A stretch of DNA of 64,000 nt. Source: Clostridium sp. AM34-11AC (GTDB taxonomy: Bacteria > Bacillota > Clostridia > Lachnospirales > Lachnospiraceae). Below are positions 3,119 through 57,745 of this stretch, piece after piece. The notes beneath the pieces were generated by a model. That model searched no databases and had not been told where the DNA came from. It saw nothing but the letters and a program-made list of their open reading frames with translations. The stretch spans positions 63,289 through 127,288 of the forward strand of contig NZ_QWGL01000006.1 in assembly GCF_003435375.1 (NCBI RefSeq), given 5' to 3'. The number at the start of each line of letters is the position of its first letter. Position 1 is the stretch's first letter. The position numbers and the translations under genes are program-made.

Positions 3119-3139
3119 GGCGAGGCCCCCTCTCTGAAA

Positions 3140-3177
3140 GGCAATTGTTCCGTGACTAAGTCACTCCCACAATTGCC
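3140..3177 (-). promoter_or_regulatory. Nested perfect hairpin in the lepB leader
   Basis: The outer arms GGCAATTGT and ACAATTGCC (9 bp) enclose an inner stem GTGAC-TTA-GTCAC. The structure ends about 20 bases before the lepB start codon and just before its RBS. There is no run of T after it, so it is not a simple terminator. An mRNA-level or protein-binding control site for lepB is possible; the function is unknown. Confidence 0.55.
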
Positions 3178-3229
3178 GCCAAAATTCGTAATCCGGGCTA
3201 TCGCCCTGCTTACTTATATCGGCTTGGCT

Positions 3230-3291
3230 GTCAAATGTCTGCCCATCCTTGCGCGCAAGTACGCAGTCTGGTCATCCGCTTAACAACACTT
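3230..3291 (+). repeat. 62-bp dispersed repeat, copy 1
   Basis: This stretch matches the reverse complement of 12569-12630 at about 45 of 62 positions, most differences being transitions. The shared core is TCCTTGCGyGCArGyACGCAG, containing a small palindrome (CTTGCGCGCAAG in this copy). It lies in the 378-bp gap between lepB and rplS. No coding potential is seen and the function is unknown. Confidence 0.6.
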
Positions 3292-3302
3292 TCATATAAA
3301 AA

Positions 3303-25889: not shown

Positions 25890-27320
25890 TTATTTTACAA
25901 GAGATCCCATATAGTAGAATCCCTTTGCCTCGTCTAAGGAGACATCAACGATCTTTCCGATCAGAGATGCGTCTCCAGCGAAATGTACGACTGTGTTGTT
26001 GGAAAGTCTTCCTGTCACAAAGCCTGCCTCGTGAGTATCGATCTCCTCCACAAGGACTTTTTGTACTGTTCCCTCGTGGCGCTTTACGACCTCAGCCGCG
26101 ATGTCCTGGACCTCCTTAAGCAGGCGGTCGAAACGGTTCTTTACCACGTCCTCCGGAACCTGGTTTGGCATAGCAGCCGCCGGTGTTCCGGTACGTTTGG
26201 AGTAGATGAAGGTGAAAGCACTGTCGTAACGCACTTTTCTCACCACATCCATGGTCTCCTCGAAGTCCTCCTCTGTCTCTCCCGGGAATCCCACGATGAT
26301 ATCGGTGGTCAGGGAAATATCCGGCATCGCCGCACGGAGCTTCTCCACCAGGGCGAGGTACTGTTCCTTCGAGTATTTGCGGTTCATTCTCTTCAAGATC
26401 TCGCTGCTGCCGGACTGAAGCGGCAGATGTAAATGGCTGCAGATCTTTTTGGAGTTCTTCATGGTCCCGATGAGCTCATCGGAGAGATCCTTCGGGTGGG
26501 AGGTCATGAAACGGATCCGCTCAAGACCTTCGATCTTTTCCACTCTTCTCAGGAGTTCCGCAAATGTGATCGGATTTTCCAGATTCTTTCCGTAGGAGTT
26601 GACGTTCTGTCCCAGAAGCATGACTTCCACGACACCGTCAGCCACCAGTCCCTCGATCTCCTTAATAATATCTTCCGGCTCCCTGCTTCTCTCGCGTCCG
26701 CGCACATACGGCACGATGCAGTAGCTGCAGAAGTTATTGCAGCCGAACATGATGTTGACACCAGATTTGAACGGATACTTTCTCTCGATCGGGAGTTCCT
26801 CCACGATCTCGTTTGTTCCTTCCCATACATCGACCACCATCTTCTTCTCCATGAAGCGCTCGTAGAGCAGCTCCGCAAGCTTGAAGATATTGTGGGTTCC
26901 GAAGATCAGATCCACATGGCGGTAGCTCTTCTTGATCTTTGCGACTACCTCCGGCTCCTGCATCATGCAGCCGCAGAGGGCGATCATCATATCCGGGTTC
27001 TTTCTCTTTACACCGCTTAAATATCCAAGGCGGCCATAAACCTTTAAGTTCGCGTTCTCACGAACGGTGCATGTATTGTAGAGGACGAAATCTGAATTCT
27101 CATCGGTTCCCTCCTCATAACCGGCTTCCTTTAAGATTCCAAGGAGTTTTTCGGAGTCTCTGGCATTCATCTGGCACCCGAAGGTGTTGATAAAACAGGT
27201 GAGCGGACGGCCTTTTTTCGCGCTCTCCGCCTCCACGAGCTTCTTCACCTGTTCCATAAAGTACTGCTGTCTCGCAGGTTCCTCTGTCGGGGCACCTGCG
27301 ATAATATTTTTATCTGTCAT
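25890..27320 (-). CDS. miaB: tRNA-2-methylthio-N6-dimethylallyladenosine synthase MiaB
   Basis: A radical SAM methylthiotransferase acting after MiaA on A37. The N-terminal UPF0004 domain begins CFINTFGCQMNARDSE; the SAM cluster is in FGCNNFCSYCIVPYVRG; a C-terminal TRAM domain follows (to VDVSLDEAKGFYYMG). 476 residues from the ATG at 27320, which has GGAG nine bases upstream; longer starts lack an RBS. First gene of miaB-mutS-mutL-miaA-ynbB. Confidence 0.96.
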   Translation of the reverse strand: MTDKNIIAGAPTEEPARQQYFMEQVKKLVEAESAKKGRPLTCFINTFGCQMNARDSEKLLGILKEAGYEEGTDENSDFVLYNTCTVRENANLKVYGRLGYLSGVKRKNPDMMIALCGCMMQEPEVVAKIKKSYRHVDLIFGTHNIFKLAELLYERFMEKKMVVDVWEGTNEIVEELPIERKYPFKSGVNIMFGCNNFCSYCIVPYVRGRERSREPEDIIKEIEGLVADGVVEVMLLGQNVNSYGKNLENPITFAELLRRVEKIEGLERIRFMTSHPKDLSDELIGTMKNSKKICSHLHLPLQSGSSEILKRMNRKYSKEQYLALVEKLRAAMPDISLTTDIIVGFPGETEEDFEETMDVVRKVRYDSAFTFIYSKRTGTPAAAMPNQVPEDVVKNRFDRLLKEVQDIAAEVVKRHEGTVQKVLVEEIDTHEAGFVTGRLSNNTVVHFAGDASLIGKIVDVSLDEAKGFYYMGSLVK

Positions 27321-27409
27321 TCTGATATTTCTCCAACTATTTTTATAAACCTTTATGTTCAGCCGTTCTCTTTTTGGCATAAACGTCCCTGGCTGAACTG
27401 TCCCGAATG

Positions 27410-27438: not shown

Positions 27439-27450
27439 CCTTGTTGTTTT

Positions 27451-27583
27451 GTAGCTATTCAGTACCTTCATAGTTACGTGCAAAAATCCATTCCAGATCA
27501 GCTTCGCTGATGGGATTTTTGCCTTCCAGCCTATGTTTTCTTACGGTCAGCGCAGCAAGTGCGCAGACCTACTGAACAGTTAC
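27451..27583. mobile_element. 133-bp palindromic MITE-like element (copy B) with perfect 8-bp target duplication
   Basis: The ends are GTAGCTATTCAGTA and TACTGAACAGTTAC (imperfect 14-bp inverted repeats). GTTGTTTT occurs directly on both sides (27443-27450 and 27584-27591). Internal hairpins are GCAAAAATCC...GGATTTTTGC enclosing ATCAGC-TTC-GCTGAT, and GGTC-GCGCA...TGCGC-GACC. The whole folds as a cloverleaf. It is about 80% identical to 33819-33951. It lies between the end of proA, which has no other visible terminator, and the miaB promoter. Confidence 0.85.
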
Positions 27584-27654
27584 GTTGTTTTTTACTTCTC
27601 CGCCCATGACCAACGTCAGCGGAAATCCGCCGGAATGCTTTACAGCCTGTATTT

Positions 27655-28896
27655 CTATTTGCGGATCTGTCCATCCCCGTAAATAATATACTTCGTGGAT
27701 GTCAGCGCCAGAAGTCCCATCGGTCCTCTCGCATGGAGCTTCTGGGTGCTGATACCGATCTCAGCGCCGAAGCCGAACTCAAATCCGTCAGTAAATCTCG
27801 TGGAGGCATTGACATAAACTGCCGCCGCATCCACCTCATTTAAGAATTTCTGGGCGTTCTCGTAGTCCTTTGTCACGATGGCCTCGGAATGCCCCGTATT
27901 GTACCGGTTGATATGGGCGATAGCCTCATCCACGGAGTCCACGATCTTGCAGGAAAGAATATAATCCAGGTACTCTTTTCCCCAGTCTTCCTCTGTGGCC
28001 GCCGTAAATTCCGGCACGATGGAGCGGGCACCCTCGTCAGCGCGTATCTCCACGTTTTTCTCATCGAGACGCTTTTTCATCAGCGGCAGGAATTCCTTTG
28101 CGATCTTTCTATGTACCAAGGTGGATTCGCAGGCGTTGCAGACACCGATCCTCTGGGTCTTCGCATTAAAGATGATATCTAACGCCATATCGAAATCCGC
28201 GCTCTCATCCACATAGATATGACAGTTTCCGGTACCCGTCTCGATCACCGGAACCGTGCTGTTCTCCACAACGGTACGGATCAGACCTGCCCCGCCTCTC
28301 GGGATCAGGACATCGAGATATCCGTTCATCCGCATGAACTCTCTCGCGGTCTCATGGCTTGTGTCCTCAATCAGGGAGATGGCATCCTCCGGGATTCCTT
28401 CCTTCTTTAAACCATTCCTGATCGCTGTGACGATGGCTTTGTTGGATTCCAGCGCGTCGCTGCCGCCGCGAAGGATCACAGCATTTCCCGTCTTAAAGCA
28501 GAGCGCAAAAGCATCTGCCGTAACGTTCGGTCTCGCCTCGTAGATGATTCCGATAACACCGAAGGGCACCCGTTTCTGCCCGATCAGGAGTCCGTTCGGG
28601 CGCCTCTTCATGGAGATCACCTCTCCCACCGGATCCTCGAGACCTACGACCTGGCGCATGCCCTCCACGATTCCCTCGATCCGCTTGTGGTTCAGCTCCA
28701 GGCGGTCCACAAGTCCCGGAGCCATTCCTCTTTCTTTCGCTTTTGCGACATCCGCCGCGTTGGCTTTTAAGATCTCATCCTCTTCATCCAAGATCTCCTG
28801 GGCCGCAGCCAGAAGTCCCGCGTTCTTTAAGTCTGTCCCCATTTTTCCGAGGATATAGGAAGTTTCTTTTGCTTTCTGTCCGATTTCTATTAACAT
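27655..28896 (-). CDS. proA: Glutamate-5-semialdehyde dehydrogenase (gamma-glutamyl phosphate reductase)
   Basis: Second step of proline synthesis: NADPH-dependent reduction of glutamyl-5-phosphate. 413 residues. [46 protein letters not shown] (catalytic Cys) and [20 protein letters not shown] are family blocks. RBS GGGAGG. Last gene of the proB-DUF896-cycloligase-proA unit. Confidence 0.97.
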
Positions 28897-33732: not shown

Positions 33733-33818
33733 TCTTTTTCTCCCTGTCTCCGGTTTTTCCTGTGATCTGAGACCGATTTCCAGACTTTAAGTCTTCTACC
33801 CCAGTATCAAACAATTTC

Positions 33819-33951
33819 GTAACTGTTCAGTACCCTCACAGTTACGTGCAAAATCCATCCCAGCTCGGCTTCGCCGATAGGATTTTTGCTTTCCGCCGCC
33901 AAGTTTTCTCACGGTCAGCGCAGCAAATGCGCAGACCTGCCAGGCAATTAC
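33819..33951. mobile_element. 133-bp palindromic MITE-like element (copy A) with near-perfect 8-bp target duplication
   Basis: Same length and about 80% identity to 27451-27583. Ends are GTAACTGTTCAG and a decayed CCAGGCAATTAC. ACAATTTC (33811-33818) and ACAATTTT (33952-33959) flank it. The internal hairpins GCAAAATCC...GGATTTTTGC with CTCGGC-TTC-GCCGAT, and GGTC-GCGCA...TGCGC-GACC are kept by compensating changes. It fills much of the gap 33733-34063; nothing else was recognised there. Confidence 0.82.
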
Positions 33952-34063
33952 ACAATTTTTATACTAGTATATCGACCTGACGCAAAAATTTCAAGTAGTA
34001 ACTGTCCCGCATCTTACCCATTTCAGGCAAAAAGTACCTCAAATTGACTTTCCGGGCGGAATT

Positions 34064-56288: not shown

Positions 56289-57745
56289 ATCATTCCGCCA
56301 TTACTGTCATTAATAATTTTCTGCAGCGTATCCTGAAGTTTCATCTGACAGTCCTCCGTCATCTGGGCGATCTTCGCCTGCATGCCGTCCTCAACAATCT
56401 GTTCCACGGACTTTCCGAAGATATTCGTATCCCAGACACCTTCCTCCGTCGCTTCCCCGTCCTTTATGTACGCGATCAAGTCCTTCGCCTGCTGCTCGTT
56501 CCCAACGATCGGCGCGATCTCCGTCTCGATCCTGGCCTTTATGAGATTGATGGAGGGTGCCTGGGCATGGATCTTCACACCGTACTTGCTGCCATGACGG
56601 ATCAGCTCCGGCTCATCTAAGGAGATCTCCGTCTTATCCGGCAGGACGATTCCGTAGCCCTTCTGGCGCACCTCCACCAGGGCGTTTCTCACCTTCTCAT
56701 ACTCTTCCTTCATCCCGGCAGATTCCTTTAAGATTTTAAACAGGCTGTACTCATCCCGCACCGGCAGGCCGGAAATATCGCTTAAGACCTCAAAGTATGC
56801 CGCCTCATCCATCAAGACCCGGATTGTCACCCGGCCGCTCGCAAGATCCAGCTCATCCGCGATCAGTTTTTTCACTGCCTGATCTGTTTCCGGCACAGCC
56901 TCCTTCGGCACGTCCTTCATCTGGACGGATGTCTTCAGGAGTTTTCCCGCCTCCATGATCAAACCTGCCTTTAACGCATGATCATCCGGCAGGATCTCCA
57001 CCCATTTCGGGATCTCAAAGTCGAGCTCTGTCACCGGGAACTCCAGGAGCACGGTGCCCAATATCTCCTCGATGTCTTCTCGCTTTAGCTGTTCACAGTT
57101 TGCCGCCCGTACCGGGACCCCGTACTGGTTTTCCATCTTTAACGCCAGGGCTTTCGTCTCCGCCGCATAGGGTCTTGTAGAGTTTAACAGGATCAGGAAC
57201 GGTTTTCCGATCTCCTTCAACTCCGAGATCGTCTGCTCCTCCGCCTCCTTAAAATCATCCCTGGAGAGTTCCCCGAAGCTGCCATCGCAGGCCACAACGA
57301 TCCCGATGGTGGAATGGTCCCGGATCACCTTTCTCGTCCCAATTTCCGCCGCCTGGGTGAACGGGATCTCATAATCGTACCAGGGCGTCTTCACGAGACG
57401 TTCCTCCCCGTTTTCCGTATGTCCCGCAGCACCTTCCACCATAAAACCCACACAGTCGATGAGCCGCACCTTCGCCCGGATCCCCTCCGCAAGCTCCAGC
57501 TCCGCCGCCTCCTTCGGGATAAACTTCGGCTCCGTGGTCATGATCGTCTTCCCCGCAGCACTCTGGGGAAGCTCATCCCTGGTCTGGGCCTTTTTCTGTC
57601 CGTCCGGGAGGTTCGGGAGCACGAGAAGCTCCATAAACCGTTTGATAAATGTGGATTTTCCGGTGCGCACAGGTCCCACAACGCCCACATAGATCTCTCC
57701 GCCCGTCCTCGCCTCGATATCCTTGTATACATGGAAATGATCCAT
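56273..57745 (-). CDS. spoIVA: Stage IV sporulation protein A (spore coat assembly ATPase)
   Basis: 490 residues. The Walker A GPVRTGKST is at residues 24-32, DCVGFMVEGAAGH and TTEPKFIP follow, and the conserved C-terminus ends GGMICIII. SpoIVA polymerises on the forespore surface and anchors the coat. The RBS GAGGGGG precedes the ATG, and a sigma-E-type promoter lies at 57774-57803. Order gpsA-spoIVA is as in B. subtilis. Confidence 0.98.
   Translation of the reverse strand: MDHFHVYKDIEARTGGEIYVGVVGPVRTGKSTFIKRFMELLVLPNLPDGQKKAQTRDELPQSAAGKTIMTTEPKFIPKEAAELELAEGIRAKVRLIDCVGFMVEGAAGHTENGEERLVKTPWYDYEIPFTQAAEIGTRKVIRDHSTIGIVVACDGSFGELSRDDFKEAEEQTISELKEIGKPFLILLNSTRPYAAETKALALKMENQYGVPVRAANCEQLKREDIEEILGTVLLEFPVTELDFEIPKWVEILPDDHALKAGLIMEAGKLLKTSVQMKDVPKEAVPETDQAVKKLIADELDLASGRVTIRVLMDEAAYFEVLSDISGLPVRDEYSLFKILKESAGMKEEYEKVRNALVEVRQKGYGIVLPDKTEISLDEPELIRHGSKYGVKIHAQAPSINLIKARIETEIAPIVGNEQQAKDLIAYIKDGEATEEGVWDTNIFGKSVEQIVEDGMQAKIAQMTEDCQMKLQDTLQKIINDSNGGMICIII

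Follow-up and report, generated by a model that had tools for sequence, protein, structure and literature searches.

What is the 133-bp element that lies between a proA-like and a miaB-like gene, what moves it, and does the sequence between its two ends matter? The initial annotation of the DNA considered here (a stretch of 64,000 nucleotides from Clostridium sp. AM34-11AC, referred to throughout as the window) had described it as a non-autonomous mini-transposon (MITE) with a cloverleaf fold, mobilised by an IS66-like or other transposase that duplicates 8 bp of target. MITEs are generally regarded as two ends with decaying debris in between. The reading that we favour, and consider likely, is that of an IS66-mobilised MITE that carries a selected fold, probably as RNA, and is comparable to ERIC.

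The element in the window and its flanks

The first copy of the element spans positions 27451–27583 (+ strand as aligned) and is 133 bp long. It scores 147.3 bits (E = 2.7e-30 in the window) against covariance model R1, which was built from 26 diverse copies, including both copies in the window. The copy is bounded by a target-site duplication, GTTGTTTT, at 27443–27450 and 27584–27591 (8/8 identical), and its ends, GTAGCTATTCAGTA and TACTGAACAGTTAC, match as inverted repeats at 12/14 positions. The left terminal inverted repeat (27451–27464, + strand) differs at a single base from the core motif GTWAC[AT][AG]TTCA[GC] that is common to IS66-family ends, and the right one (27570–27583) reads exactly GTAACTGTTCAGTA on the − strand. 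Coordinates, length, perfect duplication and imperfect 14-bp inverted ends are as the initial annotation gave them, and so is the location: a miaB-like ORF (25890–27380, − strand) lies downstream of the copy in the direction of transcription, and a proA-like ORF (27655–28896, − strand) lies upstream with its stop ~70 bp from the element, both names coming from a reading of the translations. An mRNA of these flanking genes would carry the reverse complement of the aligned strand. With 133 bp, the copy could hold at most 44 codons, and it contains no transposase gene.

The second copy of exactly 133 bp, which had also been claimed, is present at 33819–33951 (+ strand; 119.3 bits, E = 3.3e-24). 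It has a degenerate right end and a 7/8 duplication that had been missed, ACAATTTC at 33811–33818 and ACAATTTT at 33952–33959. The two copies are identical at 111 of 135 aligned columns. No third copy was found in the window, where the other model matches are copy 2 on the opposite strand (E = 0.22) and a match at 57725 (E = 0.8). Between 27430 and 27610, none of 4227 Rfam families matched the element at E up to 1. Elsewhere in the window, positions 3135–3294 (− strand) hold a catalogued RNA, Clostridiales-1 (RF01699, 99.7 bits).

A family of mobile elements in Lachnospiraceae

Further copies, which the initial annotation had proposed to look for, are abundant in relatives by pattern, profile and covariance-model searches. 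An exact-pattern scan of 84,980 species genomes returned at least 120 stretches; among the matches listed, the titles are nearly all Lachnospiraceae, with a few titled more loosely, and the copy-bearing organisms include Blautia parvula, Clostridium symbiosum, C. fessum, Coprococcus comes and many uncultured ones. The profile search gave 153 matches in 124 sources, 86 of them full-length with flanks. The covariance model detected the element in at least 58 of the 299 Lachnospiraceae genomes that were sampled, with strict filters and no more than 11 candidates scored in any genome, and in 2 of 299 genomes of a phylum-wide sample, both of which were already among the Lachnospiraceae ones. Two complete genomes, those of Blautia parvula and CE91-St56, have at least 52 and at least 54 matches, respectively (150 candidates scored in each). 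The right-hairpin pattern had no exact match in plasmids or in IMG/VR. A phage origin was considered because of three matching human-stool records that are labelled 'Bacteriophage sp.' and unannotated (MT837311, MT836459 and MT839789; loci L001–L003), and was rejected, as their ORFs, judged by reading, look like ordinary bacterial chromosome genes.

Across the 86 full-length copies, the 8-bp duplication is perfect in 57 and matches at 7/8 or better in 75, compared with 0.08% perfect and 0.34% at 7/8 or better for control pairs of flanks taken from different copies. Duplication lengths of 4–7 and 9–12 bp gave no signal in the same 86 copies. Full copies are ~133 bp long, have inverted ends of the GTWAC[AT][AG]TTCA[GC] type and duplicate exactly 8 bp, and the element transposes with an 8-bp staggered insertion. 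An empty site, which the initial annotation had also suggested seeking, is documented to the base for one related copy: in Blautia parvula, the filled site reads ACAAAATA, 134 bp of element and ACAAAATA, and the sister Blautia G413 (84% identical there) has the same flanks around a single ACAAAATA. A second Blautia relative, G414, is also without the element at that site, its target having changed, and the empty-site search for two C. fessum copies returned one partial 38-bp match only. For the window's own site, the miaB–proA loci of 30 relatives contain no element (profile search, best E = 0.6); 13 of the 30 align to both gene ends, 9 of these with spacers of 85–487 bp, and the spacers are too diverged for a base-exact comparison. 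Short, without a transposase gene, bounded by terminal inverted repeats and a duplication of fixed length, dispersed in many copies and matched by an empty site, the elements are a family of MITEs of Lachnospiraceae.

Target sites (75 copies) are AT-rich, with C (49%) or T (33%) as the last base of the duplication. Orientation is callable from the duplication in 51 of the 75, as against a mean of 37.7 and a maximum of 51 over 200 trials with random orientation, a modest hint that the two ends may not be equivalent.

Element length is 129–138 bp across subfamilies, except in three lone copies (96, 143 and 149 bp) and in a ~182-bp group (L040, L095, L103, L045, L023 and L106), which has some 50 extra bases in the central hairpin. 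Internally deleted derivatives of 79, 77, 61, 50 and 40 bp keep 7/8 or 8/8 target repeats, and in C. fessum exact end pairs of the 61-bp form are present at four places, with repeats checked at two. Such derivatives suggest either that the full fold is dispensable for mobility or that hairpin slippage recurs. Two further arrangements were observed. In L131 of C. fessum (~2790–2820), a 15-bp left-end remnant lies between two CTAATTTC, an almost complete internal deletion with the target repeat kept. In L086 (454–868), three copies follow one another head to tail with nothing but the 8-bp target repeat CTTTTATC between them, an arrangement suggestive of insertion into the existing target repeat or of recombination there.

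IS66-family transposases as candidate helpers

IS66 is described in PMC11946415 as producing 8-bp repeats and as having signature ends of 20–30 bp beginning 'GTAAGCG', the latter quoted there from a review. In agreement with the initial annotation, which had named an IS66-like transposase as one candidate, the 12-bp end core is also present in IS66-family (PF03050) elements of Lachnospiraceae, part of which show 8-bp duplications. PF03050 is present in 3/3 TnpC proteins tested. The genome of CE91-St56 contains a single-ORF IS66 element (507 aa, PF03050 E = 1.7e-17) with the ends GCAACAGTTCAGACGG and GTAACAGTTCAGACAG. This element, its right end offset by one base, is directly adjoined at L140 (2297–4304) by a 105-bp mini-element in tandem that has similar ends, the target repeat TAATTGGA being common to both. 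A second IS66 element in CE91-St56 (L141), judged by its ORFs, belongs to the three-gene type; its tnpC is divided between two frames, and one of its ends resembles GTAATTGTTCCATA.

In 21 loci fetched by TnpC protein search, the motif GTWAC[AT][AG]TTCA[GC], which was derived from the MITE subfamilies, occurs 25 times exactly versus 0 times reversed, a count that takes in the ends of the 105-bp mini-element and comes from a set in which L146 and L164 overlap; with up to one mismatch, the figures are 35 versus 1. Among seven IS66 elements with both ends located, two have 8/8 repeats (L147, 2358 bp, and L155, 1984 bp), one is offset by one base and four have none. Particular IS66 ends match particular MITE subfamilies over 13–18 bp from the tip (24 IS66 ends compared, many from partial or broken elements), which suggests that helper and mini-element ends diverged together. 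The initial annotation had further proposed to look for a full IS sharing the terminal 14–20 bp, and this was found in part: full-length IS66 elements have the same 12-bp core, with up to 18 bp shared with one copy, and none of those examined has GTAACTGTTCAGTA at both ends. Because of the end match, we infer with good support that single-ORF IS66-family transposases with the same ends likely cut and insert the element in trans.

The element resembles the single-ORF (TnpC only) group of IS66 in its 12-bp core, its inverted ends and, in part of that group, the 8-bp duplication. Unlike IS66, it codes for nothing, being at 133 bp too short to encode a DDE_Tnp_IS66 transposase, and after 12–18 bp of shared end, of GTAAC/GTTAC rather than GTAAGCG type, it continues differently from the 20–30 bp signature. 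No IS66 sequence was found inside its ends in the comparisons made. Since the ends are off the published signature, we take the element, although probably mobilised by IS66, not to be a member of that family.

The distribution of candidate helpers is patchy. PF03050 is present in three of six copy-bearing genomes, in one of these as short fragments only, and was not found in the other three, and a search with one TnpC, run without a positive control, had no match in six copy-rich genomes. A different TnpC, that of the 507-aa CE91-St56 element, finds 18 of the 299 Lachnospiraceae genomes, itself included; the element is present in 4 of these 18 against ~3.5 expected, with no excess over chance. 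No transposase for the window's own subfamily was found in the searched genomes, and IS66 fragments in Blautia parvula have no matching ends. Our reading is that helpers may have been lost from copy-rich genomes. An end pair 2141 bp apart in C. fessum was considered as an autonomous partner and rejected, its ORFs not being transposase-like by reading and no 8-bp repeat being present.

Compensatory change in the body of the element

The subfamilies share a common plan, in which the left end and its inverted copy (hairpin 1) are followed by a bulged central hairpin (hairpin 2), a linker, a right hairpin (hairpin 3) and the right end. In copy 1, the left hairpin spans 27451–27477 (+ strand), where positions 27451–27458 of the left terminal repeat can pair with their inverted copy at 27470–27477, and 6/8 pairs change on both sides among the 26 diverse copies. 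The central hairpin (27480–27522, + strand) consists of an outer stem (27480–27489 with 27513–27522), a 7-nt bulge and an inner stem (27497–27502 with 27506–27511), with both-sided change among the same copies in 10/10 outer-stem and 4/6 inner-stem pairs. The linker (27523–27544, + strand), placed from the alignment, ends in TTTTCTTAC here and usually in TTTTCNTAC across the family, and the right hairpin (27545–27569, + strand) has the loop GCAAG and shows compensatory variants at loci whose retrieval did not depend on the pattern. Copy 1 with its flanks folds with z = −4.96 as DNA and −4.43 and −4.79 as RNA of the two strands, with 0/200 shuffles as good in each run.

Between subfamilies, the stems vary widely (GCAAAAATCC/GGATTTTTGC, GCATCCAGCCC/GGGCTGGATGC, GGTATTCGCCC/GGGCGAATACC), while bulge and loop bases are mostly kept. 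In the 26 diverse copies, 33 pairs are paired in 94.4% of 844 cells, and 20 of them have changed on both sides. Covariation is 0.246, compared with 0.086 for shuffled (0/500 as high) and at most 0.076 for slid versions, over which the structure is favoured by having been taken from one of the 26 sequences. By parsimony over 144 copies, 191 both-sided Watson–Crick replacements are counted versus 141 one-sided changes (60 A-C, 31 G-T and 50 other), in an alignment that was fitted to the model and so leans towards pairing, and with ties broken towards Watson–Crick pairs. Both-sided changes that preserve pairing make up 78/108 on internal branches and 113/233 on tips, a contrast indicating that copies decay after insertion and that spreading lineages tend to keep the fold. 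The right hairpin varies in both arms in model-fetched loci (GGTCTGTGCAGTAAATGCACAGACC, GGACTTTGCAGTAAATGCAAAGTCC, GGCCTCATCAGCAAATGATTCGGCC); its conservation in L004–L123 is partly circular, as an exact pattern taken from this hairpin had served to fetch these loci, and the circularity is looser for L166–L195, which were fetched by the model built from pattern-found copies.

With respect to the cloverleaf of the initial annotation, the two internal hairpins are present, and the ends-paired cloverleaf is one of two possible forms, the other being that with the left hairpin. Over eight positions in the 26 copies, the left end pairs equally well with its inner copy and with the right end (193/208 cells each); both-sided changes over these positions number 18 cells for the left hairpin versus 10 for paired ends, and whole-structure covariation is 0.218 for the cloverleaf versus 0.246 for the left-hairpin version. 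The two forms may alternate. Covariation shows that the body folds as hairpins conserved across subfamilies by compensatory change, a pattern to which DNA-level causes may have contributed.

Orientation to genes and the strand of the fold

Neighbouring genes were called with a mechanical ORF caller for 112 copies with distinct flanks, 9 of which lie inside an ORF of at least 100 aa and 85 of which are flanked on each side by a gene no more than 600 bp away. Where the neighbours are co-directional, 49 copies lie against the genes and 11 with them (p = 7.6e-7); in the 49, an mRNA would carry the reverse-complement strand. The bias is 40:11 with ORFs of at least 150 aa and weaker, at 34:12 (p = 0.0016), with ORFs of at least 200 aa. 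By subfamily (86-copy set), the ratio of against to with is 25:2 in A, 4:0 in B, 5:1 in C and 2:3 in D, so that the bias is absent in this last, Blautia, subfamily; both copies in the window follow the majority. Copies lie in AT-rich spacers, often just 3' of stop codons: stops facing the right end are close (median 16–19 bp over three ORF thresholds), for stops at the left end the medians are 20–76 bp, and gaps to start codons are longer (medians 57–91 bp). Replication was considered as the cause of the bias and is weak at most, with 25 copies with and 27 against the leading strand in Blautia parvula and 21 and 33 in CE91-St56, where origins were judged from 20 sampled stretches per genome. 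Target asymmetry was likewise rejected, since C or T predominates as the last base of the duplication whichever way the copies lie (24/30 against-gene and 5/6 with-gene copies).

One-sided changes favour pairs that would be G-U on the reverse complement (92 vs 37 cells; 60 vs 31 events, p = 0.003), and each class of transition leans this way (G>A 37 vs C>T 20; T>C 23 vs A>G 11). By stem, one-sided A-C and G-T events stand at 25:9 in the left, 25:9 in the central outer and 5:3 in the right stem, with the opposite tendency in the central inner stem (5:10). At unpaired sites, C>T exceeds G>A, the opposite of paired sites, and T>C exceeds A>G, as at paired sites. The right-loop pair is T..A in 76 cases, C..G in 41, C..A in 15, T..G in 0 and others in 11. 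Because the counted cells are not all independent, the strand is likely rather than proven. We infer, more weakly than the IS66 step, that the selected molecule may be RNA of the reverse-complement strand, and that the fold may work as RNA where the mRNAs of upstream genes end, comparable to the orientation-dependent effect reported for ERIC (PMC2229807). A simple scan found one terminator-like site in copy 1, which is not on the proposed RNA strand, and one per strand in copy 2; neither copy has stronger terminator-like matches on the strand proposed for the RNA.

Comparison with known elements

Several folded repeats of other bacteria invite comparison. ERIC, an enterobacterial element of 127 bp, is intergenic and stably folded and is reported to affect upstream mRNA in an orientation-dependent way (PMC2229807, available part), and it is like our element in its similar size, location and stable fold. 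Whereas ERIC forms a stem-loop from its two ends and has TA termini (PMC2229807, same part), the element has several separate hairpins, 8-bp duplications and IS66-type ends and belongs to another phylum. The NEMIS/Correia elements of Neisseria (~107–155 bp) have repeats at their termini, stem-loops that are transcribed and have been suggested as sites for RNase III, and a size variant through a 50-bp internal sequence (from the same portion of PMC2229807). They thus resemble the element in size, terminal repeats and the existence of a size variant; their termini are TA, the portion of PMC2229807 at hand reports no IS66-type ends, and the element differs from them in the compensatory change of its internal fold across subfamilies. 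The CIR elements of Caulobacter and Brucella have an RNA fold that is conserved in phylogeny and in which a linker connects two arms, and in this they resemble the element; unlike it, they have no terminal inverted repeats and carry a methylation motif (PMC2229807, in the part available). QMITE2 of Coxiella burnetii is a MITE with terminal repeats, direct repeats of 7–9 bp, a strong predicted fold and shorter versions, all features with counterparts here, and one of its loci is weakly transcribed as a small RNA (PMC5896051, available part). It differs in its Coxiella host and in that the description in that part of PMC5896051 gives no evidence of compensatory change. Among the papers listed by literature searches, no title or abstract concerned the present family, although an unnamed entry may exist in the supplements of gut RNA surveys such as PMC8040213. 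With its IS66-type ends, selected multi-hairpin body and orientation bias, the element is a MITE variant that we have not seen described.

Mechanism and alternative explanations

In the mechanism that we propose, IS66-family single-ORF transposases would act in trans on the ends of the element, with 8 bp duplicated on insertion, and copies would settle in AT-rich spacers, often just behind stops. Those lying against the genes would be co-transcribed with the upstream gene, the transcript carrying the reverse-complement strand, and their hairpins would help to form the 3' end of the mRNA or direct its processing, whether as a terminator, a stability element or an RNase site, much as has been suggested for ERIC. 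Such a role would let many copies be tolerated or even used. To the full proposal of a mobile structured RNA, in which IS66 transposases would spread the fold to the 3' ends of genes, tens of them in each genome, across many Lachnospiraceae, and selection on the RNA would keep it, we give somewhat less than an even chance.

Inverted repeats can homogenise by template switching, and the element might be an ordinary IS66-type MITE with a functionless fold, its arms matched in this way during replication without selection. The frequency of both-sided changes on tips too (113/233) agrees with such an origin, as do the shortened copies of 79, 77, 61, 50 and 40 bp, whose joints resemble short repeats and suggest replication slippage at hairpins. 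Against it speak the conservation of bulge and loop bases while the stems turn over, the constancy of element length near 133 bp and the relatively higher share of both-sided changes on internal branches; moreover, neither the orientation bias nor the wobble asymmetry is predicted by template switching, which we consider a somewhat unlikely explanation. Those two asymmetries are equally unexpected if the fold is selected as DNA, where a cruciform or single strand would aid transposition, e.g., by presenting the ends or extra transposase binding sites. A role of this kind would suit the left hairpin, which holds a second, inverted transposase end, has more both-sided changes between its own arms (18 cells) than between left and right ends (10 cells, same positions) and, in some Blautia copies, has arms that match each other and not the right end; the relative excess of pairing-keeping changes on propagating lineages fits as well. 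However, the left arm pairs overall with its inner copy and with the right end equally often, and derivatives without the central or right hairpin keep their target repeats, among them the 61-bp form, which one genome has at four places (recurrent deletion in place being possible there). We regard selection at the DNA level as unlikely.

As to the helper, a non-IS66 transposase with similar ends and 8-bp duplications would accord with the failure to detect IS66 in several copy-rich genomes and with an IS66–element co-occurrence that is not above chance. Yet it would leave aside the IS66 ends of Lachnospiraceae, which come in versions matching particular MITE subfamilies, some with 8-bp repeats; in searches that did not cover other families systematically, no other transposase with such ends turned up, and the 2141-bp C. 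fessum end pair holds no transposase-like ORF by reading. A helper from outside IS66 seems improbable, and an IS66-mobilised MITE with a selected fold remains our preferred reading.

Implications

What sets this family apart from debris between two ends is that nearly 200 inferred paired changes have kept its body, and not the ends alone, in shape in a bacterial family that is among the dominant ones of the gut, and that most subfamilies are oriented one way relative to genes. If the RNA does not matter, the element offers a clean case in which to measure how far template switching alone imitates RNA covariation, a mimicry that bears on covariation-based RNA discovery in repeats. If the RNA does matter, the 3' ends of mRNAs in these bacteria would be partly written by a transposon family, and, should the mobile structured RNA prove true, that family would supply ready-made, orientation-specific post-transcriptional control elements genome-wide.
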